A stretch of 56,056 nucleotides of DNA from positions 262,342 through 318,397 of the forward strand of contig WELB01000054.1 of NCBI GenBank assembly GCA_009602725.1, in the 5' to 3' direction. This DNA is from Spirogloea muscicola (lineage: Eukaryota; Streptophyta; Zygnematophyceae; Spirogloeales; Spirogloeaceae). The notes below the pieces were generated by a model that saw only the letters and a program-made list of their open reading frames with translations, ran no database searches and was not told the origin of the DNA. A program made the position numbers and the translations under genes. Below, piece by piece: positions 520 through 56,056 of the stretch (its first letter is position 1; every line of letters starts with the position of its first letter).

Positions 520-1350
520 GCCTCCATCCTCCCCCTGTTCTGCCATAGCATCTTCCGGCCCCTCTGTAGCTGCTAATCAAAGAAACCGCTTGTAGGCCCC
601 TCCGAGCCTCTGTCAATTCTTTTTGGACTGGCTTTTCGCAGCCCTTGGCCCCCATTGGGAGTGCCACTTCTTCTATCCTTGCCTCTGGGCTGGCCCTCTC
701 ACATTCCCTTCTGGCTATTAGGTCTCCGTATTATGTAGCATTGTTTAGTCTGCACTCGACTCTGCCTGAACAATGTATTGGCTTGAATTGGCCTCCCTTT
801 CAATTCATGCGCCCCGCGCGCCTTCTCTCTGGCCCCTTCGTGATTTGGACCCTTCGATCGAGCCTTGTCAATTCTTGACGAGCTGGCTCATCACAGCCCT
901 TGCCCCCATTGGGAGAGCCACGTCTTCTCCATTGCCACTTGCCTTGCGCTGCAAGAGCCTGCTTCTCTCTCCTGCTGACTGGGCCTCGGGCGGCGGGCCG
1001 CCGTGGCGCCCATTCGAAGATTCCGCGGTGCGCTGCGTAGCCCCCCGCCCACGTCACCGCCAGCTTGGCGTCCAGCGTGGCGCCGCTGGGGGCCCGCCTC
1101 GCGGGGGGGGAGTCGCCGCTATGCTGGCTCCACGTCGGCGCCCCACGCGGCCAGCCGCCACAGCGGACGGCAGGACTGGGGGGTCTCCCGTTGCCGCCTC
1201 TCGTGGTCTCGGGAGGCGCTCCTTCCTCTTCCTCCAACTTTCACAGACATCGCCCCCTTTCCGTGTGACCCTGTCAATTTGGGCTGGCTTTCAAGCCATC
1301 GCCCCCTTTGCAAAAACAACTTTTGGGCTGGCCTCTCACAGCCATCGCCC
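520..1350 (+). repeat. Solo LINE 3' UTR modules, three in a row
   Basis: Three plus-strand units (about 520-690, 870-940, 1265-1350) resemble the 3' UTR behind the LINE stop codon at 20618. Each has a T-rich lead, a GGCTGGC...AGCC hairpin core and, in the first two, a conserved tail reading roughly CCCCCATTGGGAG and GCCACTTCTTC. The first also carries the upstream UTR segment around CATAGCATCTTC. No LINE coding sequence is attached, so these are tail-only insertions or leftovers. I could not interpret the GC-rich stretch at 1000-1230. Confidence 0.6.
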
Positions 1351-1547
1351 TTTGGGACGAGCATTCTCCCTGGAGTGCTGCATCTTGGAAGCCAGTGTGT
1401 ATGACTGCATCGCCGCGCTCAGATTGCACCCCTCCACTCGAGGAGGAATGGACATGGCCAAAGGCGGGCAGGTATCAGATGAAGTGCTGATGTGCAATCA
1501 GGCAAACGAGGCTGCAGAGGCTGCAAGGACAGATAGAGCGCCAAGTA

Positions 1548-9783: not shown

Positions 9784-10190
9784 TCAATAACCACGGGTCA
9801 AAACATAAAGGTCACTACTCGATGCATGAATACTAGATGCCAGTAACGGAGCCCTTCTGCCACCTACTAGAGCTCGCCCAGCTTTCTGGTGCAAGGCACT
9901 AGCCTGAGCACGCTGCAAACAGGCCGAAACTCGACGTCGCAAGAGCGACAGATATGCAGCTGGCAAGCCCATCTCAGCCGGAAACACATCTGCGCGTCGA
10001 GTGTAGCCTAGATTGGCAATGTTTTGAAGCAGAGTGGGACCGAGTCCATTCTTTGTGGAATTGGCCCCCGGCCCCCTTTGAAGAAAGAAGGCTCGCCCAT
10101 AGAGAAAGAGGGGCTGGCAAAGCCAGCCCAAAAAGAATGGACAATTTGAAGAGCTCACTTCTATCTCAGCAGTAGATCCATTACGCGAGA
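9784..10190 (-). mobile_element. LINE 3' fragment, divergent subfamily
   Basis: The reverse strand ends with a LINE C-terminus (RRVSACLQRAQASALHQKAG, then YVLTRGY and stop at 9784). It is preceded by LLQNIANLGYTRRADVFPAEM, a version shared with the copies near 29.1 kb and 54.1 kb but not with the 20.6 kb element. A LINE 3' UTR hairpin (10111-10129) from another insertion lies just upstream and is read through in the same frame. Confidence 0.75.
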
Positions 10191-12420: not shown

Positions 12421-12707
12421 AAGTGCTATTCATGTGATTATCTAAGCCCTCCTCCAGACGTCGTGCTTTCACCCAATGGCCTTCGCACCTCTTAGCCTAG
12501 GTTTACGGTTTGTGGTGCCTTACTTTTGCACTTTATAAGCCTTTGGCATGAGCAATGCGTGCCTTCTCTTTGTGTAGTGTTCCTTTCTCTTCCGGAAAGT
12601 GGCTCTCCAAAAAGGGGCGAGGTACGTGAACAGCCAGCCCGAAAGGAAATGACAAGGGCCGTTGGGGCCAAACGCCTCTTTCCAAGGTTTTCCCTGTAGG
12701 AGACTCA

Positions 12708-12905
12708 CTTAGTAACCTCCAGCTAGGAGCCGCAAGTCAGAAAGATTAGCCACCGGAAAGCAACCCCATTGACGACAGCCAGACGCAGCAGCTAGAGCAC
12801 GGCCAGCACGCAGATGCAAAGCGTGGACCATGGACCGCTGGAGGGTTATGGACAGGCGCATGCGAAACACCTGCACTAGCAGGCCAGCGGCGTCTTCCAG
12901 GCTGG
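12708..12905 (-). mobile_element. LINE 3' fragment
   Basis: The reverse strand gives VFRMRLSITLQRSMVHALHL, RAGRALAAASGCRQ and NLSDLRLLAGGY followed by stop at 12708, a clear copy of the LINE C-terminus. The 3' UTR with the hairpin core follows at about 12600-12660. Confidence 0.8.
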
Positions 12906-12973
12906 CATTTCACACTCATTGCCCTCTTTGGAGGAGCTCCTTATTCATCTTCCAAGAATGCTGGCCTTTGGCA

Positions 12974-13002
12974 TTGGGCTGGCCTTTCACAGGCCAGCCC
13001 AA
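12974..13002 (+). repeat. Perfect 12-bp hairpin of the LINE 3' UTR
   Basis: TTGGGCTGGCCT, loop TTCAC, AGGCCAGCCCAA: a perfect 12-bp stem with a 5-base loop. It is the longest version of the GGGCTGG...CCAGCCC hairpin seen behind the LINE copies in this window. Confidence 0.85.
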
Positions 13003-13499
13003 AGGCCAAGCCGGGAAGGAGCTGTATCCTGGCTTGTCCGCAGGCGCAACTGTTCAAAGAGCTTCTTATTGTCCGGCTGCTTTTCCTGACTGGCGGCTGC
13101 TTTATATGCTTCTAGTCTTTGTATTGCCCATGTAAGAACAGATCTACATATTTCACGGGGTTATTAAGAGAGGCTATCCTAGTGCTTGCTCATTTCTCAA
13201 GTGGTACGTCCTTGACTCATTAGTCGGGACCTTGGGATATCCTTGCACAGCCTAGCCATCGCCCATGTTGGAAGACATTCGTCTTTTTCAAGAAGAAGAA
13301 GCAATGGCGGTGAGACCCAAGCTCCCTTCTTAATGGCCGAGGTCTCCAGGAAAGCCCCCCTTGCAAAAAGTATGGAGTAGTTCTCAATGCACTCTTGGAA
13401 AGAAGCACCTGCTAGAAGTAGCTACTTAGCGACTTTCACTCAACAACCTCAAGCTGCACCAATTAGCAGCAGGGTATGCGTGACTGTGGTGCAGGGCTG

Positions 13500-14050
13500 G
13501 CCGATCATAGCATCGCCCTCTCTTCCATCATGCCAATCCTTCAGAAGGCCGTCGGACTTCACACGCGCCGGGTCGCCTTGGTGGCCTCGAGGCCGGGAGG
13601 CGGCGAGCGCATTATTGCAGACGTGGTCACCACCGATGTGTTGGACCAATCCAATCCGGAGCTCTCTGCCTCGCGGGCTGGCCATGCTGCGGCAAAGGCC
13701 GCTCCCAGCGAGGCGGCCAAACACGCTGACCACCCGGCTGGAGACGAGTTCGTACCCCTGGCCGCGGACGTGCACGGGGCTCTCGGGTCCCAAGTGGCTC
13801 GACCTGCTGGCCAGGCTAGCGCGGCGCGCTGTGTCCCGCAGGCCAGGTGAGCCGGCTGACTCCAACGCCGCTGGCTCGTGGGCCCCGGTATATCGCATGC
13901 GTTTGTCAGTCCTCCCTTCAGCGGTCCATGGCCCACGCCGTGCATCTGCGTGCTGGCCGTGCTCTCGCTGCAGCCTCTGGCTTTCGTCAGGGGGATTGTT
14001 TTCCGGCAGCTAGTCTGTCGGATTTGAGGCTCCTCACTCGTAGCTACTGA
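13500..14050 (+). mobile_element. LINE 3' fragment with frameshifts
   Basis: The plus strand encodes IMPILQKAVGLHTRRVALVA, GGGERIIADVVTTDVLDQSN, AKHADHPAGDEFVPLAADVH, then after a frame change LQRSMAHAVHLRAGRALAAA and SDLRLLTRSY followed by stop at 14050. It covers the endonuclease region and C-terminus of the LINE ORF. The frame breaks near DVHGALGS. Confidence 0.8.
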
Positions 14051-14079: not shown

Positions 14080-14350
14080 GCATCTTCAGGCCCCTCCGTC
14101 ATTGTGGCTTTAGGCCCCTCCGTCATTTGAGAAGAAGTGGCACTCCCAATGGGGGCAAGGGCTGCAAAAACCAGCCCCAAAAGAATAGACAAAGGTTCGG
14201 AGGGGCCTACAAACGTGTAGCAGCTACAAAGGGGTCGGAAGATGCTATGTCAGAACAGGGGGAGGATGGATCACTCAGTACTTACGACCCGACAGACTAG
14301 CTGCCAGGAAACTACCCGCCCGACGAAAGCCGGAGGCCGCAGCGAGAGCA
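14080..14350 (-). mobile_element. LINE 3' end in tail-to-tail orientation
   Basis: The reverse strand from 14350 reads GRALAAASGFRR and ASLSGRKY then stop, and continues into a complete 3' UTR containing the GGCTG...CAGCC hairpin (about 14159-14178). It faces the plus-strand copy ending at 14050, so matching UTR segments around CATAGCATCTTC (about 14080) and its complement (about 14240) form an inverted repeat. Confidence 0.7.
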
Positions 14351-14866
14351 CGGCCATTTGGCCCCTTCGAACCTTCGTGAATTCTTTTCGGGCTAGCTTC
14401 TCACAGCCCTTGCCCCCATTGGGAGTGCCACTTCTTCCATCGCAAAGATGAAGAAAGGGCTCGCCCATTGAGGGAGGGGATGAACTAGCCGCCGGGAAAG
14501 TACAAGTGTGATTGTAAACGCACCCCCACTACCCAGACGAGGAAGTGTCGTCGAGGCAGACGGGCGGAAGGAGGCGGCGCCGTCGCGGCCACGTCGGCCG
14601 GGCGCCAGCCAGTGCCCGGACTGATTAGCCAGCCCGGAAACCAGAAAGTTCGAAGGGGCCAGTAAAGCGTTAAAGCAACAGCGTGCCAAATGGACTGGTG
14701 GCTGTGAGAGGCCAGCCCAAAAAATTGGACAAGGTAAAGAACACAGCGACTGTGAAAAGTAAGCAGCTCACCTAAGAAGAGTGGCCTACTTCTGCTCGTG
14801 AACCTGCAGCAGGTGCGCTTACAAAGAGAAAGAAAGTGACAAAGGGGTCACCCTAAGAGGAAAAAT

Positions 14867-15140
14867 ATGCCGATCACCCGGTCGGTGATGATTTCGCGGC
14901 CCTGGCGATGGATGTTCACGGGGCCTTCGGCAGCCGCTGGCTGGATCTCCTCCAGCGGCTTGCTCGTCAGGCTATTGATCGGCGGTCGGGCTCGCCCGGG
15001 GCGCTGCCCGGCTCCAACGCCGCCGGGTCGCTCGCCCAGGTCTTTCGCATGCGCTTGGCGGTATCGTTCCAGCGATCAGAAGAAGAAAGGGCTCGCCCAT
15101 TGAGGATAGGGGCTGGACAAGCCAGCCCAAAAAAGAATGA
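14867..15140 (+). mobile_element. LINE 3' fragment cut by a 3' UTR module
   Basis: The plus strand encodes DDFAALAMDVHGAFGSRWLD, LLQRLARQAID, NAAGSLAQVFRMRLAVSFQR, then changes abruptly to the hairpin module (15110-15128) in the opposite orientation. This looks like one insertion or rearrangement within another. Confidence 0.7.
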
Positions 15141-15451
15141 ACAAAGAACGAGAAGGGGGCCAGAGGAAGCCAGAGGAAGCGCTAAGAAACCAAAGCACAC
15201 AAAGAAAGAAAGCAGCTACAAATTACTCAGTAACCCCTGCTAAGCAGCCGCAAATCAGAGAGGCTAGGGTNAGGTTGCCAAATATCGTTAAGGACTTCGC
15301 TTGGCTCAAGCACCATCTCAATCAGCGCCGCCAGATGCCACGGATTCTGTGGTCATACACTGGGGCTCCCAGTTGCTTAGATCTACATGCTCTCATGCCC
15401 AGTATCTCACGGCCGCATCGTCCTGCCGTGCCTGCTACCTCGTGCTTCCCA

Positions 15452-20310: not shown

Positions 20311-20394
20311 GAGCACCGAGTTGCCACTTGAGTCGCTGTGGGCCAGCCAAGAAAAAAGAATGAACCAAGTTCTTTGCAGGGGCCAAGGGAAAGA

Positions 20395-20617
20395 AGAAGT
20401 GGCACTCCAAATGGGGGCAAGGGCTGTGATAAGCCAGCCCAAAAAGAATTGACAAGGGGTCGGAAGGGCCGACAAGCGTTTAGCAGCTACAGAGCGAAAA
20501 GCGCGGCCGAATTGACTGGTGGCTGGGAGGAGCCAGCCCAAAAGGAATGGACAATGTCAAAAGGAGCCGAATGGCACAAAAAGCAGAAGACTAAGTGCTA
20601 AGACGACAAGGAGGCTC
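20395..20617 (-). repeat. LINE 3' UTR with two hairpin units
   Basis: The reference copy of the 3' UTR, directly after the stop of the long LINE frame. On the minus strand, two units each start with a T-rich lead (TTCCTTTTGGGCTGG; TTCTTTTTGGGCTGG) and fold as GGCTGG...CCAGCC (about 20523-20542) and GGGCTGGCTTATCACAGCCC (20421-20440). The second is followed by the GCCACTTCTTC tail. Confidence 0.7.
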
Positions 20618-22336
20618 TCAGTAACCTCGAGTCAGCAAGTGCAGGTCCGAGTAGCTAGAGGGCGGGAAGACGTCGCCCTGACGAAACCCGGAGGCAGCCG
20701 CCAGGGCGCGGCCGGCACGTAGGTGGACGGCAAACGCAAGAGACCGCTGGAGGGAAATGGCGAGGCGCATCCTGAACACCTGGGCGAGGGACCCGGCGAC
20801 GTGGAAGCCAGGCTGCTCGCCGTTCTGCCCCTGGCGACGGGCCACCGCACGACGAGCAAGGCGGTGAAGAAGGTCTAGCCACTTGGTCCCAAAGGCTCCG
20901 TGCACGTCGACGGCGAGTGGGACAAACTCGTCGCCTTCGGGGTGATCCGCGTACTTGAGTTCCTTGGCACCCGCCGCCAGGCGGACTGCATAGCCCGCCT
21001 CCTCGGATGAACGCTTGTCGCTGCTGGATACAACGCAGTCCGTAGTGACCACATCGGCAATGAGCCGGGGACCCCCGCCCAGCGCACTGGCGACGAGATC
21101 GGCCCGGCGGGTGTGAGGGCGGCCATCCGCTCCGACAGTCAGGGGCATGATGCCGGGGTGTTCCAGCGCCACGGTGTAGCCGGCCTCCACGAGAATGCCG
21201 TACATGGCGTTGCGCAACAGGTCGTGGGTGGCGGTCCGCTCCCCTCCTCGTGCGCACCTGAGCATGTGGGCAGCCAAATTCGCCGCGTCTGGGCTGCGCT
21301 CGCCGCACTCACATTGGTGTACCCCATTGAGGCAGGGTGGGTGGAGGCCGAGGAGGCGGTGGACCGCTGTACGGAAGACGTCGTCCTGCATGCGCAGCGC
21401 GTCATAGATAGGGAGCGCAGACAGCCAAGCTGCCGCACCAGGTGATGACGCCGAGTGTAGCCGCGCGCGGCCCCGGACGTCGGCCGGAGGCAGAAGTGCC
21501 AGCGCCTTGGTGAATGCGGCCGCATCGACCTCCGCCATGTAGCGAGCTTGGGCCCGGAGGTCGGCCGTGCGCGAGAGGTGCGCAAAGGGGACGGCCCGCG
21601 GCACCAGGGCGGGGTGGCCCGCCAGCAGCGCATCCCGGGCTGTGCGCAGCTCCACTTGGAAAGGCCACGCGCCGGTCTCGACGTCCGCCACTGCGGGCTC
21701 CAGGAGGCGACCCCCATGCCAGAGGAACCGCTGGGCCACCGAAGCCGCGACCTGTGACCAGCTCCCCAGGTAGGCTGCCTGGCAGGCACGAGCCAACGGC
21801 CGGCAGCCGAGACCCCCGCGGCTCACAGGCAGGGAGGCCTGTTGCACTGCGGCCTGCGTCTCCAGGAAGGCCGGGTGTTGGACCAGGGCCGCTGTGCTGG
21901 CCAGGATACCTGCATCAAAGGTCTCGTACACAGCCTGCGTCGCCGGGGAGGGGGGGAGTGTGCGCGCCAGGTACAGGGGACGTTGGGCAATGCAGCGCGT
22001 CAGCATGGCGAGCCCGAGCTGCATGTCATGCAGCTCAGGGAGGCGGGCCGCCGGCTTGAGGTGCTCCTGCAGCTTGCCGCGCAGCTGCTCCTCCACGAAG
22101 GCAGGTGAGCCCAAGGGAACCCCGAGGAGTGTGATGCCCCCGTCTGGCGTCNGGCTGCTCGCGCGCGCCGCCGCCACCGCCGCCGCCGCCGCCGTCGCCG
22201 CCTCGGCGCTTCTCACAGGTGCGCCCCCGTTCGTGCCCGCTGCGGCCTCCCTGCCGCCGGCATACCCTGCTGCGCAGACCGTGTCTTGGAGGGCTGTGCT
22301 GATGCCGGAGGCCGCAGCAGCAGCCGAGGCTGCCAT
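20618..22336 (-). CDS. LINE ORF, 3' half: zinc knuckle and restriction-like endonuclease (chimeric N-terminus)
   Basis: A 572-codon open frame, the longest in the window. From the C-terminus back: LLTRGY-stop; FRMRLAISLQRS; the endonuclease region (RRADLV, PRLIADVVTTD, AKELKYADHPEGDEFVPLAV, DVHGAFGTKWLDLL); a CCHC knuckle (HQCECGE, AAHMLRC); and the post-RT thumb (TLLGVPLGSPAFVEEQL, LPELHDMQLGLAMLTRCI). Reverse transcriptase motifs are absent. The first 60 or so residues are an Ala-rich stretch unlike the corresponding part of the 43.7-47.4 kb element, and the change occurs exactly at the ambiguous base 22152. This is therefore a 5'-deleted or rearranged element, or an assembly join. R-x-DLV...DVVTTD...K-ELKY fits the PD-(D/E)XK pattern of R2/NeSL-type elements by inference. 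Confidence 0.82.
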   Translation of the reverse strand: MAASAAAAASGISTALQDTVCAAGYAGGREAAAGTNGGAPVRSAEAATAAAAAVAAARASSXTPDGGITLLGVPLGSPAFVEEQLRGKLQEHLKPAARLPELHDMQLGLAMLTRCIAQRPLYLARTLPPSPATQAVYETFDAGILASTAALVQHPAFLETQAAVQQASLPVSRGGLGCRPLARACQAAYLGSWSQVAASVAQRFLWHGGRLLEPAVADVETGAWPFQVELRTARDALLAGHPALVPRAVPFAHLSRTADLRAQARYMAEVDAAAFTKALALLPPADVRGRARLHSASSPGAAAWLSALPIYDALRMQDDVFRTAVHRLLGLHPPCLNGVHQCECGERSPDAANLAAHMLRCARGGERTATHDLLRNAMYGILVEAGYTVALEHPGIMPLTVGADGRPHTRRADLVASALGGGPRLIADVVTTDCVVSSSDKRSSEEAGYAVRLAAGAKELKYADHPEGDEFVPLAVDVHGAFGTKWLDLLHRLARRAVARRQGQNGEQPGFHVAGSLAQVFRMRLAISLQRSLAFAVHLRAGRALAAASGFRQGDVFPPSSYSDLHLLTRGY

Positions 22337-23007
22337 TGAGGCAACAGCTGCCCCTCCGCGGTCGCGCGCTGCCGTCTCTTAAGGCTGACTCCTCCCGCGA
22401 AAGCCACTTATAGTGTGACGCACGCGGCCATTTGGCAAGATGTCATGAGATCTTGGCGTGGCTTCCGCGTCAGTGAGCTCGTCAGATAGATCCACCGGTG
22501 GCCGCTTAAGTGTCGTGCAGTCGCACGCGCTCAAATAGCTAGCATAGAGTCGCTGGCCCTGAATTGCCCCCTCCATGGACCTGCCACGGGCTCTAAGACA
22601 CCAAGAGACAGGAAGTGGCTGAACATGAAGTGGTCAACGTCGTCGCCTTGCATACTGACGTTGTCCACTTGATGGCAAGTCGCTTCTCGCCATGGATGCT
22701 CCATTGAATTGCTCCGTGGTAGTACCTTCACGGCTGTGTGTCTGTAGTAAGCCGAGAGCTTGCGGTCAATCGGACACCCTCTGTATGCGGCAAAAGCTTT
22801 GACACATCAAAGTCCAAGCCTGCTTGTGTCCGTATTGATTTGTTGGCTCGTGAGGGGGCTGTTCAGAAGTCTAATACAAGGCTGTGCTGCTCAAAGAAGC
22901 ACACGCTCAGACAGGCCAGGCTGCCGTCTAAGAAGCTCATTCATATGGTAAATCACTGCAAGTAATTTGTCGGGCTAGTGACGGTGTTCTGAGGAGGGGT
23001 TTGGTTG
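22337..23007. other. No gene recognised; upstream region of the dehydrogenase
   Basis: Spacer between LINE and host gene. A plus-strand open stretch around 22738-22950 ends in a good donor (ATATG|GTAAAT), but its frame does not join the first dehydrogenase exon at the nearby CAG acceptor, so I do not call it an exon. It may hold the promoter and 5' UTR. Confidence 0.35.
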
Positions 23008-27389: not shown

Positions 27390-28609
27390 TCATGTAGCTC
27401 TGCTGCGTCCACTGCCTGAGATCTCCAAGAGGCCTCGACTTTGCACAGTCAGCTGCCTCCTTTTGCTGTCCTCCTCGAGTTCCTCCTGCCGCCTCCTGGT
27501 CTGCTCCTCGTCAAAAATCTTCACTGGCAGCCAGTCAGGCCATCTCCACGTGTCACCCTCGTGTAGATGTTGACCAGGGACTTCGTCGGACAACATGGCA
27601 GTCAGGCGACGCAAGCGCATCTCCTGAAGTTCCAAGTAGCCCCACTGAGCTCCGGTTCCCACGCCCGCAAACAACAAGGCCATAGGCAACATACGAGCTC
27701 GACCACCTGTTATTGACCAAGCCGACAAAATGTCACGCCTCTGTAAGAATGGCTAGATTAGGGTGCACTGCAGATCATTATACATGTTTTGCAAGGGTAC
27801 AGCCTGCACTGCAACTCCTGCTCTGCTTTTGCGACATACATTCAGAGGAACAGAGAGGCTTCCTTATATGGAAGGCTTGTCCTCTTTGATGAGCGGAATA
27901 ACAACATAACGACAATGCCTACCCGAGAGGCTGCTGCACCATCATGCAACGAGCCATGCAGACGTGTCTGCAAGCATGGTGTGCTTGCAGACAAGCTTTC
28001 CTACTTGTACCTTGAATGCCACCAAGGGCTGCTCCGCTGGCAAGACCGGCCAGGAAACTGTCGCCCAAATTGTTGGGCTGAGTGAATCGCAATTCCCGCA
28101 CTAACTCTTGCATGGCTGCATCATCCAAGTTGAATGTTGCTGTGCGTGATGCAACAACGGTGTGCCACTCGCGAATTCCCAGCAGCCACAGCCTGTCACG
28201 GTGAGCAGGCAGCAGCTAGCACCAGTTGCCTAAAGTGGCACAAGAGGAAGCCTGTGCCAGGAGAGCGCGCAACAGCAGCAACAAAGTCACACTTACCAGA
28301 AAACATGGCCGTGGCAATAACGAAATTTGAGGCGACGGCAACAGTAGCAGGCGCCAGAGTCCTTCCGTGAAGTGCGCCGCCCACGAGGCCACAGCCCAGC
28401 CCCGCAAGTGCTGCATCAAGCAAAGCCATGCACGCGAGAACGGACGAGCACACCGCACTGTGAGACCATGGCAGCGAAGCCGCACCTCTGGCTGCGCGTG
28501 CGGAAGCAGGGCCAAGAGGGGGCTCACCGCCGGCAACGGTGCGGCCGAGGATGCGGGCCTGCCAGCCCGCGCTGCCGTCGTAGTCAGCCGGCCGCCGGTG
28601 TGCCGCCAT
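27390..28609 (-). CDS. Small polytopic membrane protein, Tim17/Tim22/Tim23-like (tentative), three exons
   Basis: Exons on the minus strand: 28609-28297, 28139-28011 and 27706-27390, with consistent phases, 252 aa. Residues 1-30 are polar (RRPADYDGSAGWQARILGRT). Then come Gly/Ala-rich hydrophobic segments: VLACMALLDAALAGLGCGLV, TVAVASNFVIATAMF, SFLAGLASGAALGGIQGGRA and MLPMALLFAGVGTGAQWGYL. The end is charged and helical (DEEQTRRRQEELEEDSKRRQ). The GxxxG-rich helix pairs and the size resemble Tim17-superfamily proteins of mitochondrial or plastid membranes, but no signature motif settles it. An intron could also be removed inside exon 1 (donor GGCG|GTGAGC), but its frame does not rejoin, so I keep exon 1 continuous. 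Confidence 0.6.
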
Positions 28610-28832
28610 GCCCAGCTCAGGCTCGGCGCCAGGGCAGGGCTGTGGCCCCGGTGTCGCCACGGGAACAGCGGCAGTAGGGGGAAGGGGTGTCACAAGCAAG
28701 CAGCACGATGAGGACAGTGCTGCTTGCTCCCAGGGCGGCGGATGTCGTCGCAGCCGCCGCCGGGCTCGCCGACGGCGCCGACTTCTGGTGCTGTTGCTGT
28801 TGCTGTAGCTGTAAGAAAGTGGCTCTCCCGAA

Positions 28833-28852
28833 GGGTTTAGGTTTAGGGGGTG
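28833..28852 (+). promoter_or_regulatory. Telomere-like motif upstream of the Tim17-like gene
   Basis: GGGTTTAGGTTTAGGGGG lies about 220 bases upstream of the Tim17-like start codon on the opposite strand. It may be a telo-box-type promoter element, as at 3397, or a small interstitial telomeric remnant. Degenerate. Confidence 0.3.
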
Positions 28853-28889
28853 CGGGCTGTCAATAGCCAGGCCGTAAGAAAGATGGCGC

Positions 28890-29240
28890 GCCCTTAGACA
28901 AGATAGGCTGGCCAAGCCAGCCCAAAAAGAATGGACATTATCCAAAGCCAAAAAGAGGTGCCGGTAAAGAGTTGACAAGGTTCGAAGGGGCCGAAAAGCG
29001 AGTGCTATGAGGTCTAGAAGTGAGCTCTTCCGAAAGGGAAGAGCAACCAGCTAAGGTGCCACCAGCTAAGGCTCGACCAGCTTTCTGGTGCAAAGCATGA
29101 ACCTGAGCTCGCTGCAAACCGGCTGACACACGACGTTGGAAAAACGACAAATAGGCTGACGACATGCCCATCTCGGCTGGCTTATCCTCACGTCGTGCAT
29201 ACCCTAGACTTGCAATGTTCTCAAGTAGAGTATGGAAACG
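28890..29240 (-). mobile_element. LINE 3' fragment, divergent subfamily
   Basis: The reverse strand encodes LENIASLGYARR, MGMSSAYLSFFQRRVSAGLQ and RAQVHALHQKAGRALAGGTL, the same subfamily as the copies at 9.8-10.2 kb and 53.9-54.2 kb. It ends in a hairpin module (GGCTGGC-CAA-GCCAGCC at 28906-28922). Confidence 0.7.
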
Positions 29241-29419
29241 AGGATCCTTTTAGCCAAAGGTGTCAAATCACGGCTGGTTAGAGGTGATCGCTACGGGGAT
29301 AGTGGACTGCAGCTTTCTCTGCTCTGCACTACCCACTGCGTGGCCAGCGATGTGGGTAGATGCTGGACTCTTGTACGCCTCTGTCACAACGACATCAACC
29401 AAGGCTCGTGGACCTCAAA

Positions 29420-29780
29420 GGGGGACAAGGGCTGTGAAAAGCCAGCCCAGAAAGGATAAACAGGGGTCAAAGGGCCGATAAAAGGGCTGAGCTTTAGGGA
29501 TCAAGAGCGCTGGTGGGAGAAGCTCATGTAAAGAGGTGGCGACTGCTGTAAAAAGAAGATGCAACTAACTGAGATTGACTCTTTCAGTAGAGGGCGATGG
29601 CTGTGATTGGCCAGCCCAAAGAAGAAAACGAACACAGTACGAAGGGGACACAGAAGCGGATACAGCGACTCAAGTGGCCACTGGGTGCTCAAATATCCCC
29701 TGTTGAGCAGCCGTAGGTCAGACAAACTAGTCTCCGGGTAGCAGGTTGGAAGAGCTCTTTCTCCTGATCGGGTCCTCGCG
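29420..29780 (-). mobile_element. LINE 3' end with 3' UTR hairpins
   Basis: SLSDLRLLNRGY on the reverse strand (about 29735-29690) is the LINE C-terminus; the stop is lost and the frame reads on. Hairpin units follow at 29599-29618 and 29429-29448. The 29.8-30.1 kb stretch upstream is open on the minus strand but unrecognised. Confidence 0.6.
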
Positions 29781-43655: not shown

Positions 43656-46600
43656 GGCCAGGCGCATGCGGTACACCTGGGCGAGCGACCCAGCTGCAGG
43701 GAAGTCCACCGGCTCCCCATGGAAGCGGCGGGCGACGGCGTGACGGGCAAGCTGGTGGAGCAGTTCGAGCCACCGGGCACCCAACGCCCCATGTGTGTCG
43801 ATGGCCAGCGGGAAGAACTCGTCAGCTGGCGGATGGTCTGCGTACTTGAGTTCTTTGGCACGAGCGGCGCAGGCGACCGCATACCCAGGCTTGGTTGCAC
43901 ACTGGGCTGGGTGGGATCGGTCGAATGCGTCGGTAGTCACCACGTCCAGGAGGAGACGTGGCCCGCCGACCTGTGGGGTGGCCACCAGGTCCACACGACG
44001 GGCGTGGAGACCGTCGGCCCTGTCCTGGAGCGGCATGATCCCAGAGTGCTCCGCTGCCACAGAGAAACCAGCCTCCACCAGGATGCCGTGCATTGCGTCC
44101 CGGAGGCGGTCATGGGCCGCTGTCCGCTCTCCGCCGTGCGAGCAGCGCAGAACGTGAGCGGCCAGCTCCCCCTGCTCGGCCCCGCGCTCACCACACTCAC
44201 ATTGACTCACGCCCTGGAGGCATGGCGGCGGCAGGCCGAGGAGCCTGTGGACGGCACTCCGGAATACCTCGTCCGGGAGGGCGAGGGCGTCGTTGAGTGG
44301 GAGGGCCTGGAGCCACGCCGCTGCCCCGGGGGAAGCGGCAGAGTGGAGTCTCGCGCGCCCGCGCAGGTCGGCCTCGGGGAGCTGCAGCACGGCGGTGGTG
44401 TAGGCGGCCTTGTCGACCACGGCCGCGAAGCGCGCTTGGACCCGCAGGTCCGCGGTGTGCGCGAGGTGCGCAAAGGAGACCGCCTGGCCGGCCAGGTCCG
44501 GGTGCGCCGCGATCAGCCCCTGGTGGGCGGTGCGAAGCGACTCCTGGAACGGCAGCGCGCCCGCGTCGACCTCCACCACCGCCTGCTCCAGTGCACGCCG
44601 GCCGTGGACGATGAAGCGCTGGGCCACGGAGGCGGCAGTCTGCGCCCAGCTGCCGAGGTATGCAGCCCTGCAAGAGCGGACGAGCGGGCGCAGGCCGAGA
44701 CCCCCGTGGCTGAGGGGTAGCGCCGCCTGGTGGATAGCGGCTGGCGACTGTAGGAAGCCCGGGTGGCGGACCAGGGCCGCCAAGCTCGCCACCATGCCGG
44801 CATCGACGGCCTTGTACACCGCCAACGCCTCTGGGGACGGCGGGGTGGCCCGCGTTAAGTACTGGGGCCGCTGCCCGATAGCCTTGGTCAACATGGCCAA
44901 TGACAGCTGCATATCGTCCAGCTCGGGAAGCCGGGCGCAGGCAGAAGGTGCTCCGCAAGGCGGGCTCGCAGCTGCCCCTCCACGAAGGCCGGCGTGCCGA
45001 TGGGGACTCCCAGGAGGGTGAAGCCGTCTGCCGGAGTCCGGCAGCCCGGGGGCAGCGCCAGGGTGGGTAGGATCTCGCCAGGGGACCAAGCCGCGCACTT
45101 CGCCGGCCGGATGGTCAGGCTGAGGGGGGCCAGCTGCTGCGTGAAAGTGACGAAGGCCGCCGCCACGTCTTCCGGAGGGCCGACTATGGTAGTGTCATCT
45201 GCGAAGGTGGGGAGAAGGACGCCTGGGTGGGCCGCTGCGGTAGCCTGCAGAGCCCGGTTGTGCGCGAGCGCAAAGAAGAAGCCGGCGAGGGGGTCCCCTT
45301 GCCGCGTGCCCGAGCGGGACTGCAGGACCTCCACCTGATCACCCCCTGTCCACCAGAGGAGGTCGCTGGGCTGACCGTACCCCAAGCGGAAAAAGGGGAC
45401 CAGGGAGGGGAAGGAGGCCCGGAGCTCCTCCGCAATGCAGGCGCGCTCCACGGTGTTGAAGGCGTTTGCCACGTCGACGGCCAGCACCAGCCACCGGGTT
45501 TGCTGGTCCAGGGTCGCACGGACCCCGTGAACGACGGCCTCGCTCCCACTCCGCAGCCCCGCGCCGTACTGGTGTGGCGCCAAGTGCACCTGCGCCGGCC
45601 CCGCATGCTGCTGCCAGAGTACGCGGCTCACCAGGCGGTAAAGGACCTCCCCAATGGCAATGGGCCTGACCCCTCCGCTCGGCTTGTCGAGGGCGAGCAG
45701 CGTGCTGGTGCACAGGACGCCACGGATGCCGGCCGGCACGTTGTCCCTGGCCAGGTGCTGGCAGATCTGCAGCAGCCCGTTGAAGTCAGCCGCCTCGCCC
45801 TCGAGGAAGATCTCCCGCAGGTGCTCAGTGAGCATGCGGGAGGGACCGCCGGCGGCTGCGCGACGGCTGGTCTGGAGCGCCTTTTTGAGGGCGTCGGCTT
45901 CCAAGACCACCTCCTCCGGCGGGGCGAACGCGGCCAACCACGGTGGCAGGGAGGAGCTGGCCGGGGGGTGGAGGGAGTCCAGGGCCGCCCGCGTGGCCGC
46001 ATTGGTCGGCGCCAGCATCGCATCGTCCAGGGCCTGCACAGCCCGGGAGAGCTCACCCGCGTGGCCGTAGCGAAGAGCCCTGCGGACGCTGGCGGCCCAG
46101 TCGTGTGTAGCCCCACGGCCACCACGGTTGGCCGCGGACGCCGCCACGGCTGCGTCGTGCCTCGCCAGGAGCTCCTCCCAGTGCCCGCTCTCGAACATGT
46201 GGACGCGCTCCAAGAGGGGCTGCTGGCCCTGCTTGCGACTGTCAGGAGAGACCCGCCCGAGCAACAACCTGGGGAAGAGAATGAAGAGCTTCCATGCCGC
46301 CTCGTCCCTGTGGTCCGCGACGATCCGCTGCGTCACCAGGCGGAGCCCGCGGCGGAGGTGCGGGCGCGCCCAACGCGGAACGTGGCGGAGGAGCGGCAGG
46401 GCCGCCTGGCGGTGGACTGCGGCCAGGTCGAGGCCTGCCAGCCACTCCCAGTGATGAGGCGTGGGCGGGGACGGCGCGGGAGGCCTGCCTGGTCGGCCTC
46501 GACGACCACCCGCTGCCGCTGCGCTCCACGCCTGCTCCGCACGGTTGTTGGTACACGACAAGCTCGCTGGTGGTTGGACCGGCCGGACCGCGAGGTGAAG

Positions 46601-47367
46601 GTCTTCTGGCACAGCTGGCACCGCGGCGGGTCGGGCGAGCGAGGTGGGGGCGACGACGGTGGCGCCCGCTCGCTCGGCGGAGGTGGAGGCGGCGGAGACG
46701 GGGGCGGCGTCGATGGTGCTGACCGCGGTGGGCACGACGGCGGAGGGGACGGCGGCTGAGCGGGAGGCAATGGATGCTCCTCCGTGGCCGGCTCCTGGGG
46801 TGAGGCTTCCAGGACCGTGGCGGTGGGGCTGCAAGCTGCGGCGGCCACATCGGGCGGCGTCGAGGGCGGCGGCGGCGGCGGCGACGGCGGTGGGGACGGC
46901 GGCTGTGCGGGAGGCAATGGATGCTCCTCCGTGGCCTGCTCCTGGGGTGAGGCTGCCAGGACCGTGGCGATGGGGTTGCCAGCTGCGGCGGCCCCACCGG
47001 GCGTCGTGCCGGCGGCGCTGGGATACCCCTTGCAATGCTTCCGGTGCATGGAGACACCCTTCGGATTTTTGAAGTCCCGCGGGCAGGTTGGGCACTGCGC
47101 GCGCGCGGGCGCCTCAGGCGGGGATGACGGCGGCGGAAGAAGGGGGGGCTGCTCCGGAGGTGGCGTGTTGGCGGCATGGATGGCGGCAAGGGTGAGACAC
47201 CGCTGCGCCCAAGCGAACTTGGCCTGGGGGTACTCAGGGCTCTTGCTCCGGCGACGGCGCCCTGGACGCGCGGGTGGGGCGGCGGCGGCGGGCGGCGCGG
47301 CGGTGACGGCGGGGGCCGGCGCGGGGGCCTGGTCGGGAGGGGGCCTGCTCGCCGCCGCGGACCCCAT
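43656..47367 (-). CDS. Near-full-length LINE ORF: two zinc fingers, reverse transcriptase, zinc knuckle, restriction-like endonuclease
   Basis: The ORF starts at the ATG at 47367 (MGSAAASRPPPDQ). Two fingers of form C-x2-C-x12-H-x3-C follow: CPTCPRDFKNPKGVSMHRKH plus C, and CQLCQKTFTSRSGRSNHQRA plus C, separated by a Pro-rich repeat. The RT domain has SGGVRPIAIGEVLYRLVSR, VLAVDVANAFNTVERACI (motif A), SRSGTRQGDPLAGFFFAL (motif B) and LPTFADDTTIVG (motif C, catalytic FADD). The thumb (FTLLGVPIGTPAFVEGQL), a CCHC knuckle (SQCECGE, AAHVLRC) and the endonuclease region (RRVDLV, RLLLDVVTTD, AKELKYADHPPADEFFPLAI) follow before the gap. Two frame breaks, near 46.45-46.55 kb after finger 2 and near 44940 (one base missing after the thumb), mean it is decayed or contains base errors. 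The architecture is that of R2/NeSL-type elements, which insert by target-primed reverse transcription; no APE-type endonuclease is seen. Confidence 0.85.
46751..47045 (-). repeat. Tandem duplication, 147-bp unit, in the LINE ORF linker
   Basis: Two copies starting GGCGGCTG at 46751 and 46898. Each encodes about 49 residues including EHPLPPAQPPSPPPS and TVLEASPQEPAT or TVLAASPQEQAT. The unit keeps the frame and lies between the two zinc fingers. Confidence 0.75.
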
Positions 47368-47529: not shown

Positions 47530-48145
47530 TTGGCAAGGCTGCAGGCGGTGACGAGCGCTGAGTACGCGGACCACCTTGCTGGCGATGAGCTTGCCAGCCC
47601 TCTCCTGGAAGCGTCGTACCTCTTCTTCTGATTTGCTGTTGCTCACTCGTGGTTACTGAGTATCCATCTGCATCATTTCGTGTCTTGGTGTGTACTTTTG
47701 TCTTTCCGGGCACTATTTGTGGCCTTTGAGGCCTGCGGACATTGTCCATTCATTTCTGGGCTGGCTTTGCTAGCCCCTCTTTTCTATGGGCGAGCAGTTT
47801 CTTCTTGCAGTTTGGGCGCTGGCAATGGACGTGCACGTATGGTGATTGGTGGCTGGACCTCCTGCAGCGCCTTGCACGGCGGGCCATCACTCGTCGTCAT
47901 GGACAGCAAAGTGAGCTGCCCAGCTTTTGGAGAGCCACTTCTCCGTGCGATGCCGCTGGGTCGCCTGCCCGGGTGTTCCACATACGGCTCTCCGTCCCGT
48001 TTTGGCGTTTCCAGGCTCATGCAGTGCACTTACGGCTTACGGGCAGGCCGCGCCTTGGTGCTGCTTCTGAGTTTTGTCTGTGTGACCATTACTCCAGCTG
48101 CAGCAGTGTCCGACTTGTGGCTGCTGACTAGGGGTTACTGAGCTC
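47530..48145 (+). mobile_element. LINE 3' fragments, plus strand, decayed
   Basis: The plus strand near 47.6 kb has a C-terminal remnant (LLLICCCSLVVTEY), then a 3' UTR hairpin (47758-47776, GGGCTGGC-TTT-GCTAGCCC). A second fragment follows: WWLDLLQRLARRAITRRHGQ, ARVFHIRLSVPFWRFQAHAV, and in a shifted frame LWLLTRGY with stop near 48141. At least two insertions are superimposed. The fragments lie head to head with the long LINE on the other strand. Confidence 0.65.
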
Positions 48146-48149
48146 CCGG

Positions 48150-48780
48150 GCGGCGGCCCGCGTGTTATTGCAAATGTGGTCACCACCGATGTGGTGGATT
48201 GATCTGACCCGGGGCTTTCTGCTTCGAGGGCTGGCCATGCTGCGGCAAACGCCGCTCGCAGTAAGGCGGCGAAACCGTGGACAACGCGGCTGAGGACGAG
48301 TTCGTTCCCCTGGCCGTCGATGTGCACGGGGCTCTCGGGTCTCAGTGGCTCGACTGCTAGCCCGGCTTACGCGGCAAGCTTTGTCCCGCAGGCGAGGTGA
48401 GCAGGCTGACTTCAACGCCGCTGGCTCGTTGGCCCAGGTATACCGCATGCGTTGGTCCATCTCCCTTCAGTGGTCCATGGCCCATGCCTTGCACCTGCGT
48501 GCTGGCCATGCTCTTGCTGCAGCCTTTGGCATTCGTCAGGGGAATTGTTTTCCGGTTGCTAGTCTGTCGGATGTGAGGCTCCTCATTCGTCGTTAGTGTG
48601 TGGTTTCATCCTACCCCAGGTCTGAGCTACCGCTTGTGGCCCCTTCGTAGTTTGGCCCCTTCGACCCTCGTCAAGTCATTTCGGGCTGGCTTATCACTGC
48701 CCCTTGCCCCCATTTGGAGAGCCACTTTCTCTAGACACGCCCAGTGTCTACATGTAGAGAAAGCCACTCTTCTCTATGGT
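48150..48780 (+). mobile_element. LINE 3' fragment with 3' UTR
   Basis: The plus strand has DEFVPLAVDVHGALGSQWLD with a stop, then AGSLAQVYRMRWSISLQWSM, AHALHLRAGHALAAAFGIRQ and SDVRLLIRR. The 3' UTR (about 48600-48780) carries the T/C-rich lead, the CGGGCTGGCTTATCACTGCC core and the GAGAGCCACTTTCTC tail. Confidence 0.78.
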
Positions 48781-48984
48781 CGAGCACATTCTTCTTCTTC
48801 TAGAGAACCCAGTGGCCCTCAAGCCGTGTGGTTCTGGCGTCGACCCTTCGTGGGCCTGGGTCCCTCTTTCGGGGCTGGCCAATTGCAGCCCCCCCGCCCC
48901 CTTCACAAGAGCTCAACTTTGTTTCGGCCTGCGCTGCCCCGCGGGAGTTGCTCTTGGCCCCAGGCACACCCACCTCTCGCGCCG

Positions 48985-53602: not shown

Positions 53603-53689
53603 GCCGGGCCGCCGCCCGCGGCCGCGGAGGGGGCAGAGGGTACGAAAGCCTGGCAGAAAGTACCTTTGCCAAAGAAGAAGAAGAAAAGA

Positions 53690-54562
53690 CGCTTCCAGTT
53701 GAGGGCGGTGGCTGTGAGAGGCTAGCCCAGCAAAAGAAATAGTAAAGAATGAACACCCTCTCAAAAGGGATGGAGTGTATGTTCAGTAATGAAGGGCCTG
53801 TGTGGCCAAGTACAGAGACAAGCACATTGACAGATGTAAATCACCTGCTGCTATGCTGACCCGCTCAGTAACCACGAGTCAGCACTTAGAGGTCGCTAAC
53901 TGATGCCCGAATGCCGGACGGCAATTGACAAAGCTCTTGTGCCACCAGCTAAGACTCGAGCAGCTTCCTGGTTCAAAATATGAGCCTGAGCTCGCCGCAA
54001 ACAGGCTGACACACGATGTCGCAAACATGACAAGTAGGCTACCGGCATGCGGTCTTCTCGTGTCTAGCTGTGTGGTTTTTCTTTCCGGCATGCTCATCTG
54101 GGCTGGAAGCAATTTCACACATCGTGCATATCCTAGACTTGCGATGTTCTTAAGTAGGGTATGAAAGCGAGGACCCATGCAGTCAAAGGCGTCAATTGCG
54201 GCTAGTAGAAGGTGGTTACTGCGGGGGTAGTCGATAGTAGTGTTGGAGCTTTCGCTGCTCTACTCTTCCCACTGCGTGGCCAGCAATAAGAGTCGATGCT
54301 GGACCCATGTATGCCTCCTCACAACCACATCGACCAAGGCTCGTGGGCCTCCGCCAAGTTGTACACCCACAACGTCTGGAATGCGACGGTAATAGCGTTC
54401 CTGCGCATCTGTGGTGATCGGCATGATGCTGTCCTCTTCCACAATGGCGCGGTGACTGGCGTCGCGCATCAAGTCCGCCAGGGCATTGCGAAGTAGATTG
54501 TGAACGCCAATCACTTCAGGGCCTGTGGGACACCGCAGCATGTGTGTAACGAAGTTACACAA
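53690..54562 (-). mobile_element. LINE fragments, divergent subfamily
   Basis: Reverse strand. 54562-54260 encodes CNFVTHMLRCPTGPEVIGVH, NLLRNALADLMRDAS, IPDVVGVQLGGGPRALVDVV, the zinc knuckle and endonuclease start. 54178-53865 encodes HTLLKNIASLGYAR, then a decayed C-terminus ending in a TRGY-like stop at 53865; an unrelated 40-base insertion breaks it near 54050. The 3' UTR hairpin follows at about 53709-53728. The LTR element begins just where the coding similarity stops at 54562. Confidence 0.7.
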
Positions 54563-55084
54563 GATGGAACATCTATATCATGGGAATGATAGCTGGAGGG
54601 GGCACTGAGGAGGCGAAGGACGGGCGCGCGATATTAGAGAAAGCGCATCTCTGATTAATGGCGCGCGACGCTGATGAAGGAGCAATATGGAATTCAGGAG
54701 CGCGACGGCGGCAAAGCCGGAATCTAGTGTTAGAACTCTACTAATATTAGTATTAGTATTCCGCGCGGGTCCCCGCAATCGGCGGCGACTCCAGCGGCGG
54801 AGGCGGCGGCCACGGGTGGATCTTCTGTGAGGGCTTAGCAAGTGGCCGGGCGCCTAATAATCCCATGAGGCCGGGGGCAGGGCCCCGAGAACCTCGATGG
54901 TTACTACTCAAGAAGGAGGGGCAGCCAACAGCGGCCCTTCTCGCCTCCCCAGACGCTTACACTTGGCATTGTTTACATTTCAACAGCTGGTTTGTTTTGA
55001 CCCATTGCATACGTTTGGCTCCGACTCCTTTGCTTCGCGACACCAACGCCTCGTCCTTGGGCTTGACGATCCTCATTCTTTACA
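54563..55084 (+). mobile_element. Putative 5' LTR of a Ty3/gypsy-type retrotransposon
   Basis: About 520 bases between the interrupted LINE and the primer-binding site. The end is placed at TTCTTTACA because the primer-binding site starts two bases later. The 5' border is placed where LINE coding similarity ends; it is not proven, since the 3' LTR lies outside the window. The region includes AT-rich TAATATTAGTATTAGTATT around 54740, a possible core promoter. Confidence 0.55.
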
Positions 55085-55085
55085 G

Positions 55086-55097
55086 TGGTATCAGAGG
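55086..55097 (+). other. Primer-binding site, initiator tRNA-Met type
   Basis: TGGTATCAGAGG matches the classic LTR-retrotransposon primer-binding site complementary to the 3' end of initiator tRNA-Met. It sits two bases after the putative LTR end and about 40 bases before the gag start, which is the expected position. Confidence 0.8.
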
Positions 55098-55138
55098 AAA
55101 CAAGTCTTTTCGGCGCAACCACAGAGTGTGACGCGTCA

Positions 55139-56056
55139 ATGGCAGGCAAGAAGGGTGCCAAGAAGCGAAAGGGATCGGCCGCAGCGGCCACCACCCCTGC
55201 GAGCGAGCGGTCGAATACCGTGGCCACCACCCCTGCAAGCGAGCGGCCGGATGCAGTGGCCACCACACCTGCGAGCGAGCGGCTGGATGTCCCGCTCGCA
55301 GCTATCGTGGGTGAGTCCACTGGTCCTAGCCGGCCGCAGCTGTTGGGCGACGGTGAACATGGCAGAGGGGCGCTCTTGGAGGCGGAAACCGACGCGGACG
55401 TGGATGAGAGCGAACCGGATCCGGGAGACGGTGTGGACATGGCACGCAATCAGGCGGTCATCTCTGCCATGGAAGTCCTATCGGCGGAGGTCCAGCGGCT
55501 CAAAGCTGAACGAAACGACCTTTGGCAGGAGTTGGATAAAGCAAAAGAAAGAATCGGGCAAGCTTCTATGCATTCCCACGAGGCAAGCGAAGTGCTAGCC
55601 TCGAACAGAGGGCTCGCTACTCTGAAACCGGCGAAACCAGATTTCTTTGCTGGCGACGGTGATGTCAGGGCATGGCTTTTCCAGATGGGCCAGTATCTTA
55701 CACTATCTAAGGTACCGATGGAGGAGAAACCAATTTTTGCCTCCACTTTTCTACGAGGGAATGCGGTCATCTGGTGGAGATCCATTGTGGAGTCGGAAGG
55801 AGGCGAATCGATCTCATGGAATGAATTTCAGACGAAGCTCAAGGCCCAATTTATGCCCATTGACCCCATCCGCATCGCAAGGGACAAGCTGGCGGTGCTT
55901 CGACAAATTGGATCAGTACAGGAGTATGTCCAGAGATTCCAGACTTTGCTTCTAGAGATCCCCGATGTCAGCGAAGTTGAAAAAAAGGACCGCTTTGTGC
56001 GGGGCCTCAGATTCAGCATCAAGAAGGAAGTGGACATCAGGGCACCGGAAACATTC
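55139..56056 (+). CDS. Ty3/gypsy-type gag polyprotein, N-terminal 306 codons
   Basis: Open from the ATG at 55139 to the end of the window without a stop. The N-terminus is basic (MAGKKGAKKRKGS) with three near-identical 12-residue repeats around ATTPASER. A short coiled coil follows (EVQRLKAERNDLWQELDKAK), then the retrotransposon gag domain: KPDFFAGDGDVRAWLFQMGQ, STFLRGNAVIWWRS, WNEFQTKLKAQFMPIDPIRI, ARDKLAVLRQIGSVQEYVQR and KKDRFVRGLR. No frame break in the visible part, so the element may be young. The zinc knuckle, protease and RT would lie beyond the window. Confidence 0.9.
   Translation, partial: MAGKKGAKKRKGSAAAATTPASERSNTVATTPASERPDAVATTPASERLDVPLAAIVGESTGPSRPQLLGDGEHGRGALLEAETDADVDESEPDPGDGVDMARNQAVISAMEVLSAEVQRLKAERNDLWQELDKAKERIGQASMHSHEASEVLASNRGLATLKPAKPDFFAGDGDVRAWLFQMGQYLTLSKVPMEEKPIFASTFLRGNAVIWWRSIVESEGGESISWNEFQTKLKAQFMPIDPIRIARDKLAVLRQIGSVQEYVQRFQTLLLEIPDVSEVEKKDRFVRGLRFSIKKEVDIRAPETF

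Follow-up and report, generated by a model that had tools for sequence, protein, structure and literature searches.

The locus studied here, a stretch of 56,056 nt from Spirogloea muscicola (hereafter the window), is LINE-rich DNA with eukaryotic content, and it raises the question of what a GGGCTGG...CCAGCCC hairpin that recurs across it represents. An earlier note placed the hairpin in the LINE 3' UTR and argued that the copies differ but keep pairing, the paired changes suggesting selection on RNA structure at a site recognized by the reverse transcriptase (RT). We give a probability of roughly 0.65 to the reading that the hairpin is part of a conserved 3' tail of about 63 nt in an R2-like LINE family, probably of the restriction-like-endonuclease type, which has filled the locus with 5'-truncated copies, and that the LINE protein would bind the tail RNA to start target-primed reverse transcription. 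The covariation claim fails, as the paired changes are not borne out.

A repeated unit and its LINE

The hairpins that had been singled out are all present. Perfect stems were found at 10111-10129 (8 bp, loop AAA), 12974-13002 (12 bp, loop TTCAC), 15110-15128 (7 bp, loop ACAAG) and 28906-28922 (7 bp, loop CAA), and the hairpin at 47758 has the 8 bp quoted for it, including one G.T. As written, the motif is antisense to the LINE at 10111, 15110 and 28906 and in LINE sense at 47758 and 12974. Its recurrence is due to the shared descent of a repeated unit of about 63 nt in which it lies. With a core model of 66 positions, 24 copies of this unit are aligned in the window, 14 of them strong and 10 weaker. 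A hidden Markov model (HMM) built on 14 copies found by hand recovered all 14 with E-values of 3e-11 or better, along with weaker ones, and the 22-mer CCAGCCCAAAAAGAATGGACAA, which spans the 3' arm and the letters that follow it, occurs six times with at most three mismatches, versus 0.00 times in shuffles. Exact pattern scans for further copies gave none in the viral contigs and none in the genome contigs.

All copies were taken from this one window, and hence represent one locus. The 14 strong copies were aligned as A1 and 20 copies as A2, which leaves out four partial hits of the 24 (14450-14490, 48865-48896, 12974-12995 and 144-172). The hit at 14450-14490 lacks the 5' arm, and the one at 48865-48896 has an intact stem that is one G-C pair longer. 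The tails were sorted by eye into types I (four copies), II (eight) and III (five), with three of the 20 left without a type. A tree does not cleanly split these types: two type III units, at 20521 and 14702, fall among the type I tails. The units are:

10083-10145, minus strand: type I; 8-bp hairpin within an 8-bp outer helix, z -4.5
15082-15144, minus strand: type I; 98 nt past a stop, adjoins a plus-strand LINE ORF piece at 14857-15078
28877-28938, minus strand: type I; outer helix of just 4 bp
47741-47804, plus strand: type I; 97 nt past a stop
20392-20455, minus strand: type II, downstream unit of LINE A; hairpin GGGCTG/CAGCCC with an 8-nt loop, 176 nt past the stop
14376-14437, plus strand: type II, tail of LINE copy D (13476-14047, split by copy E)
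48668-48732, plus strand: type II, tail of LINE copy F (48149-48590, the unsplit counterpart of D)
611-674, plus strand: type II
865-928, plus strand: type II
12595-12655, minus strand: type II, tail of LINE copy C (12888-12712); hairpin down to 4 of 6 pairs
29405-29462, minus strand: type II
20495-20555, minus strand: type III, upstream unit of LINE A; 77 nt past the stop, outer pair G.A
14672-14732, minus strand: type III
53694-53733, minus strand: weaker, type III; 133 nt past a stop, followed by TTCTTCTTCTTCT
29584-29620, minus strand: weaker, type III; upstream, in LINE sense, of the unit at 29405-29462
1321-1369, plus strand: weaker, type III
1272-1310, plus strand: weaker, gapped
12899-12946, plus strand: weaker, hairpin broken, with 4 of 6 pairs left; immediately ahead of 12974
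28813-28877, minus strand: weaker, with a telomere-like (CCCTAAA) insert

The telomere-like stretch gggtttaggtttaggggg lies at 28833-28850, inside the decayed tail unit, and is perhaps a break healed with telomere repeats. The sequence TTCTTCTTCTTCT, at about 53670-53690, suggests a TTC-repeat terminus or target. The window also contains a Ty3-type gag (PF03732, E 1.2e-18) at 55067-56056, which continues past the window end, and two host-like gene pieces, a ubiquitin-conjugating enzyme (PF00179, 16434-17333) and a PEBP (PF01161, 53057-53782).

Two pieces were used to classify the LINE:

20618-22378, minus strand: LINE A, C-terminal part of the ORF (zinc-knuckle-like and RLE-like region, ending LLTRGY*)
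43656-47113, minus strand: LINE with an RT domain (PF00078) in two overlapping frames; N gap on the 3' side, no tail seen

The RT domain (E 1.9e-16) identifies a non-LTR retrotransposon, and the nearest solved chains of the RT protein are R2 proteins (three PDB matches, best E 2.9e-5). By eye, the C-terminal region contains a zinc knuckle and RRxDLV...DVVTTD...KxxKY-like letters, which may represent a CCHC knuckle and a PD-(D/E)XK-like endonuclease. A fold search with this region against 350,542 chains returned R2 proteins at ranks 1 and 2, with weak scores (E 0.011 and 0.024; model mean pLDDT 50), and the predicted model of a longer C-terminal part has a mean pLDDT of 38. At the sequence level the region has no match in PDB and no relevant Pfam match in four members. 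The family likely belongs to the restriction-like-endonuclease (RLE, R2-like) group. No relative of the LINE protein was found in the viral contigs. An Rfam scan of the window revealed no rRNA gene, and the insertions here are therefore not in rDNA; a tRNA scan, relevant to a possible partner SINE, found none.

The perfect hairpin at 12974

12974-13002, plus strand: hairpin named in the earlier note; perfect 12-bp stem, partial and borderline match to the unit

Of all members of the family, this hairpin stands out most, although it is also the weakest. It matches the unit over only about 20 nt, with 12.7 bits in nhmmer (E 0.005), 13.6 bits in a sequence-only model (E 0.0016) and 12.4 bits in a covariance model (E 0.71), the last two having been run under different settings, such that their difference does not measure the gain from structure. 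The match covers the 5' arm and the loop, and the 3' arm is the exact complement of the 5' arm, unlike the family. The arms extend imperfectly to 20 nt with 85% complementarity, and the fold is far above shuffles (z -4.0). Judged by its letters, 12974 would at best be a partial copy of the unit in which the 3' arm has been replaced by the exact complement of the 5' arm.

According to the parts of PMC8794818 considered here, template switching in replication generates perfect hairpins. At 12974, such a switch may have used the 5' arm as a template to overwrite the 3' arm in what was a decayed tail fragment, in which case the perfect stem would result from mutation and not from selection. For this one hairpin we regard the scenario as a serious contender, at slightly less than even odds. 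It accommodates the tail-like 5' arm and loop, the letters of the 3' arm that are foreign to the family, and the absence of the conserved flanks. It also fits the excess of perfect 12-bp hairpins, of which the window holds three (27965-27993, 28695-28728 and 12974-13002) where 40 order-2 Markov sequences average 0.025; the first two are located outside the 24 units, with a sequence-only hit (5.9 bits, E 0.42) touching the one at 28695. As in the template-switch hairpins covered by those parts of the source, the perfect stem is possibly one step from an imperfect one, but no ancestor-descendant pair is present here, and no sister copy displays the pre-switch state. Moreover, even the descent of this hairpin from a tail unit is a borderline call, with E-values between 0.0016 and 0.71, and selection would give a z of -4.0 likewise.

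Pairing and conservation in the unit

The tail reading concerns the unit as a whole, and here the statement that copies differ but keep pairing does not stand. The quoted hairpins belong to the best examples in a larger family, in which no pair is changed on both sides, neither in 14 nor in 20 copies. The quoted copies differ from each other by one-sided changes, namely G.U in place of G-C at 28906 and 47758 and the loss of an inner C-G at 15110, or in the loop. Among the 20 aligned copies, all six core pairs are kept in seven, five in nine and four in four, so that 16 of the 20 units have at least five of the six stem pairs.

In A1 (14 copies, 84 cells), 90.5% of the cells are paired compared to 90.7% in shuffles, and in A2 (20 copies, 120 cells) the corresponding values are 85.8% and 85.6%, with two-sided changes in none of the six stem pairs in either alignment. 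Nor were two-sided changes seen in type I alone (four rows) or type II alone (eight rows), which removes the basis for the suggestion that paired changes reveal selection on RNA structure. Of 22 stem changes in the 20 copies, four leave a standard pair versus 7.3 expected from which letters changed and from the transition share of unpaired columns. RNAalifold, applied to the 14 copies, predicts this 6-bp helix alone, with an unfavourable covariation term of +0.39, and a G-test with APC over 3670 column pairs in A1 places the hairpin pairs at ranks 1198 to 2113. Sliding the partner arm lowers the percentage of paired cells, a drop that indicates no more than an inverted-repeat consensus, and some slid versions outscore the hairpin in covariation in both A1 and A2. 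Significant covariation was thus looked for and is absent from these 20 decayed, low-variation copies of one locus, a test whose power is low given so few copies and so little variation in the stem. The lack of compensatory changes would be explained if dead copies decay one side at a time.

A longer structure was also considered, in which an outer helix (A1 columns 41-47 with 86-92) joins the hairpin to give 15 pairs. Two of the outer pairs are changed two-sidedly, but the structure is unsupported across the family, since shuffles match its paired cells in 100 of 500 cases and its covariation score in 103 of 500. In type I the outer helix has 8-9 bp in three of the four tails and 4 bp in the fourth, and contains no two-sided changes.

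Within the unit, conservation across the 20 copies is highest in the hairpin arms, where 22 of 240 letters are changed, compared to 30 of 153 (20%) in the loop and 24-33% in the flanking blocks. The two arms are not equally conserved: changes affect 6 of 120 letters (5%) in the 5' arm and 16 of 120 (13%) in the 3' arm. This asymmetry, together with the conserved letters that continue from the 5' arm into the loop, agrees with the tail being read by its primary sequence, the block TTGTCnATTC-TTTTT-GGGCTGGCTT, in which case the inverted arm CAGCCC would be incidental and the hairpin without a role. The paired cells and covariation scores that equal those of shuffles fit as well, as does the observation that 10 of the 14 strong units are not unusually stable. 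Yet the 3' arm still exceeds the loop and the flanking blocks in conservation, and the type I tails hold nested helices with z down to -4.5. We consider this alternative unlikely.

The tail reading, with a role for the hairpin, draws on the folding of some units. All four type I tails fold better than shuffles (z -4.5, -2.5, -1.7 and -3.9). The remaining ten strong units are no better folded than shuffles, with a mean z of about -0.5. The hairpin is part of the minimum-energy fold in 7 of the 14 strong units, and in consensus folds it forms in two of the three tail types, type III being the exception. Between LINE copies A and D the tail is 87% identical and the ORF end 74% (p 0.015), and between A and F the values are 89% and 74% (p 0.007), two comparisons that are not independent of each other. 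The pairs A-C, C-D, C-F and D-F displayed no significant difference between tail and ORF end. In LINE sense, the downstream unit of LINE A reads TTGTCAATTCTTTTTGGGCTGGCTTATCACAGCCCTTGCCCCCATTTGGAGTGCCACTTCTTCT, and the copies diverge shortly past CTTCTTCT.

Position in the element and a candidate role

The assignment of the motif to the LINE 3' tail is upheld by the stop distances and by a nested copy: the unit lies ahead of the 3' terminus of the element, where an RT recognition site would sit. In the five units for which a stop codon was found, the unit is located 77-176 nt past it, and the terminus is TTC-rich. LINE protein fragments occur at about 14 places in the window, many of them ORF 3' ends only. 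A LINE end upstream in the same sense was identified for 10 of the 20 units in A2, by the ORF map (20422, 20521, 12630, 14399, 48693, 28906 and 53720, the last also by its stop), by a stop (15110 at 98 nt, 47758 at 97 nt) or by alignment to LINE A (14159), and is not established for the other ten. Conversely, eight LINE ORF ends reach the last residues of the protein (229, 9787, 12712, 14047, 19979, 20621, 48138 and 48590). Four of these are followed by a strong unit (12712, 14047, 20621 and 48590) and one by a 10-bit match alone (229), and three (9787, 19979 and 48138) have none of the 24 aligned hits behind them.

The nested copy is:

14130-14354, minus strand: copy E, a 225-nt 5'-truncated LINE insertion; 3' end CCACTTCTTCT, tail unit at 14130-14192

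Copy E interrupts copy D, which is on the plus strand, and is flanked by an exact 6-bp TSD, CATTTG, at 14124-14129 and 14355-14360; this is the one copy for which a TSD was worked out. When the flanks of D are joined and aligned to the unsplit copy F, the alignment crosses the joint with a score of 110, compared to 97, 97, 68 and 48 for joins displaced by -40, -20, +20 and +40; two of these fall short by just 13, as the alignment has only 23 nt to the left of the joint. In a wider alignment, the homology between D and F extends to either side, and D contains some additional sequence ahead of E. The unit is placed just before the 3' end CCACTTCTTCT, within the TSD-bounded insertion. Copy E and the 3'-end ORF fragments thereby show the 5' truncation, TSD and common 3' end of a LINE. 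In this sole case that can be ordered in time, the hairpin is not missing from the recent insertion: the later E has 6 of 6 pairs and its older host D has 5 of 6. It is highly improbable that the unit is a target site or free palindromic element hit by LINE insertions, and not a LINE part, since the ten units without an established LINE end and the three ORF ends without a unit are outweighed by its location inside insertion E and by its trailing several separate LINE ends in one sense, at 77-176 nt past the stops found.

Two units are present in the UTR at 20395-20617, 99 nt apart, as had been described. A type III unit followed, in LINE sense, by a type II unit is seen in two tails (20390-20577 and 29399-29632), and in a third (14618-14750) the second unit is weak; the tandem arrangement is thus not peculiar to LINE A. 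At 47600-48740, LINE 3' ends are chained in one sense: a tail, a 5'-truncated ORF ending TTACTGA without a tail, and a truncated ORF with a tail. This chain may have arisen either by template jumping or by repeated insertion.

In its proposed role as a LINE tail, the unit would be bound by the LINE protein through letters of the upstream block and the short GC-rich hairpin. Binding would bring the RNA end (..UUCUUCU) to the RT site, where target-primed reverse transcription would start. The inserted copies would be dead, their hairpins then decaying one side at a time. The absence of covariation, the ten strong units at shuffle stability and the three of eight ORF ends without a unit count against this reading, as do the minimum-energy folds and the type III consensus that lack the hairpin, the four copy pairs with no significant tail-ORF difference, and the lack of an Rfam match near a threshold. 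We are dealing with an ordinary LINE tail of the stringent type, for which a recognition role is plausible but not shown by covariation.

Rfam presumably includes the LINE tail families UnaL2 and R2. The Rfam scan, extended up to E 5, gave two matches, to bacterial sRNA or lncRNA models far below thresholds, one of which (E 2.4) overlaps the tail at 10054-10172. A literature search by subject returned no title on this family among the matches listed.

As described in portions of PMC10499050, the 3' UTR of R2Bm is needed to start, a 43-nt core of it suffices, and this core is bound by the R2 protein. Compared with that description, the LINE studied here has an R2-like RT, R2 proteins as best fold matches of its C-terminal region, and a 3' UTR in which a short stretch is conserved, with small stems as well as unpaired letters that are themselves conserved. 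It differs in that its tail has no Rfam match, that its insertions are not in rDNA, and that binding is predicted. Excerpts of PMC4176376 report that L2-clade LINEs recognize a stem-loop in the tail. UnaL2, ZfL2-1 and ZfL2-2, as presented there, likewise have a short hairpin near the 3' end that is common to the family and for which recognition by the cognate protein was proposed, but the RT here is nearest to R2 and the terminus is TTC-rich. By analogy, the tail most likely works as those of R2Bm and the L2 clade do, and the hairpin tail is probably a handle gripped by the copying enzyme.

A more speculative view, which we rate as rather unlikely, is that the tail is modular within one R2-like LINE lineage, with different RNA architectures at the ends of related elements that share the same core letters: an 8-bp hairpin in an outer helix of about 8 bp in type I, a 6-bp hairpin in type II, and type III then type II in tandem. 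The doubled tail would then provide two RT handles, with template jumping explaining the chained 5'-truncated ends.

The results illustrate that hand-picked hairpins of a repeat family can mimic covariation that the full family lacks. Should the tail be the RT handle, nature would have supplied a set of compact variants (about 63 nt) within an R2-like element, which could help to learn what letters and helices a LINE protein of this kind reads.
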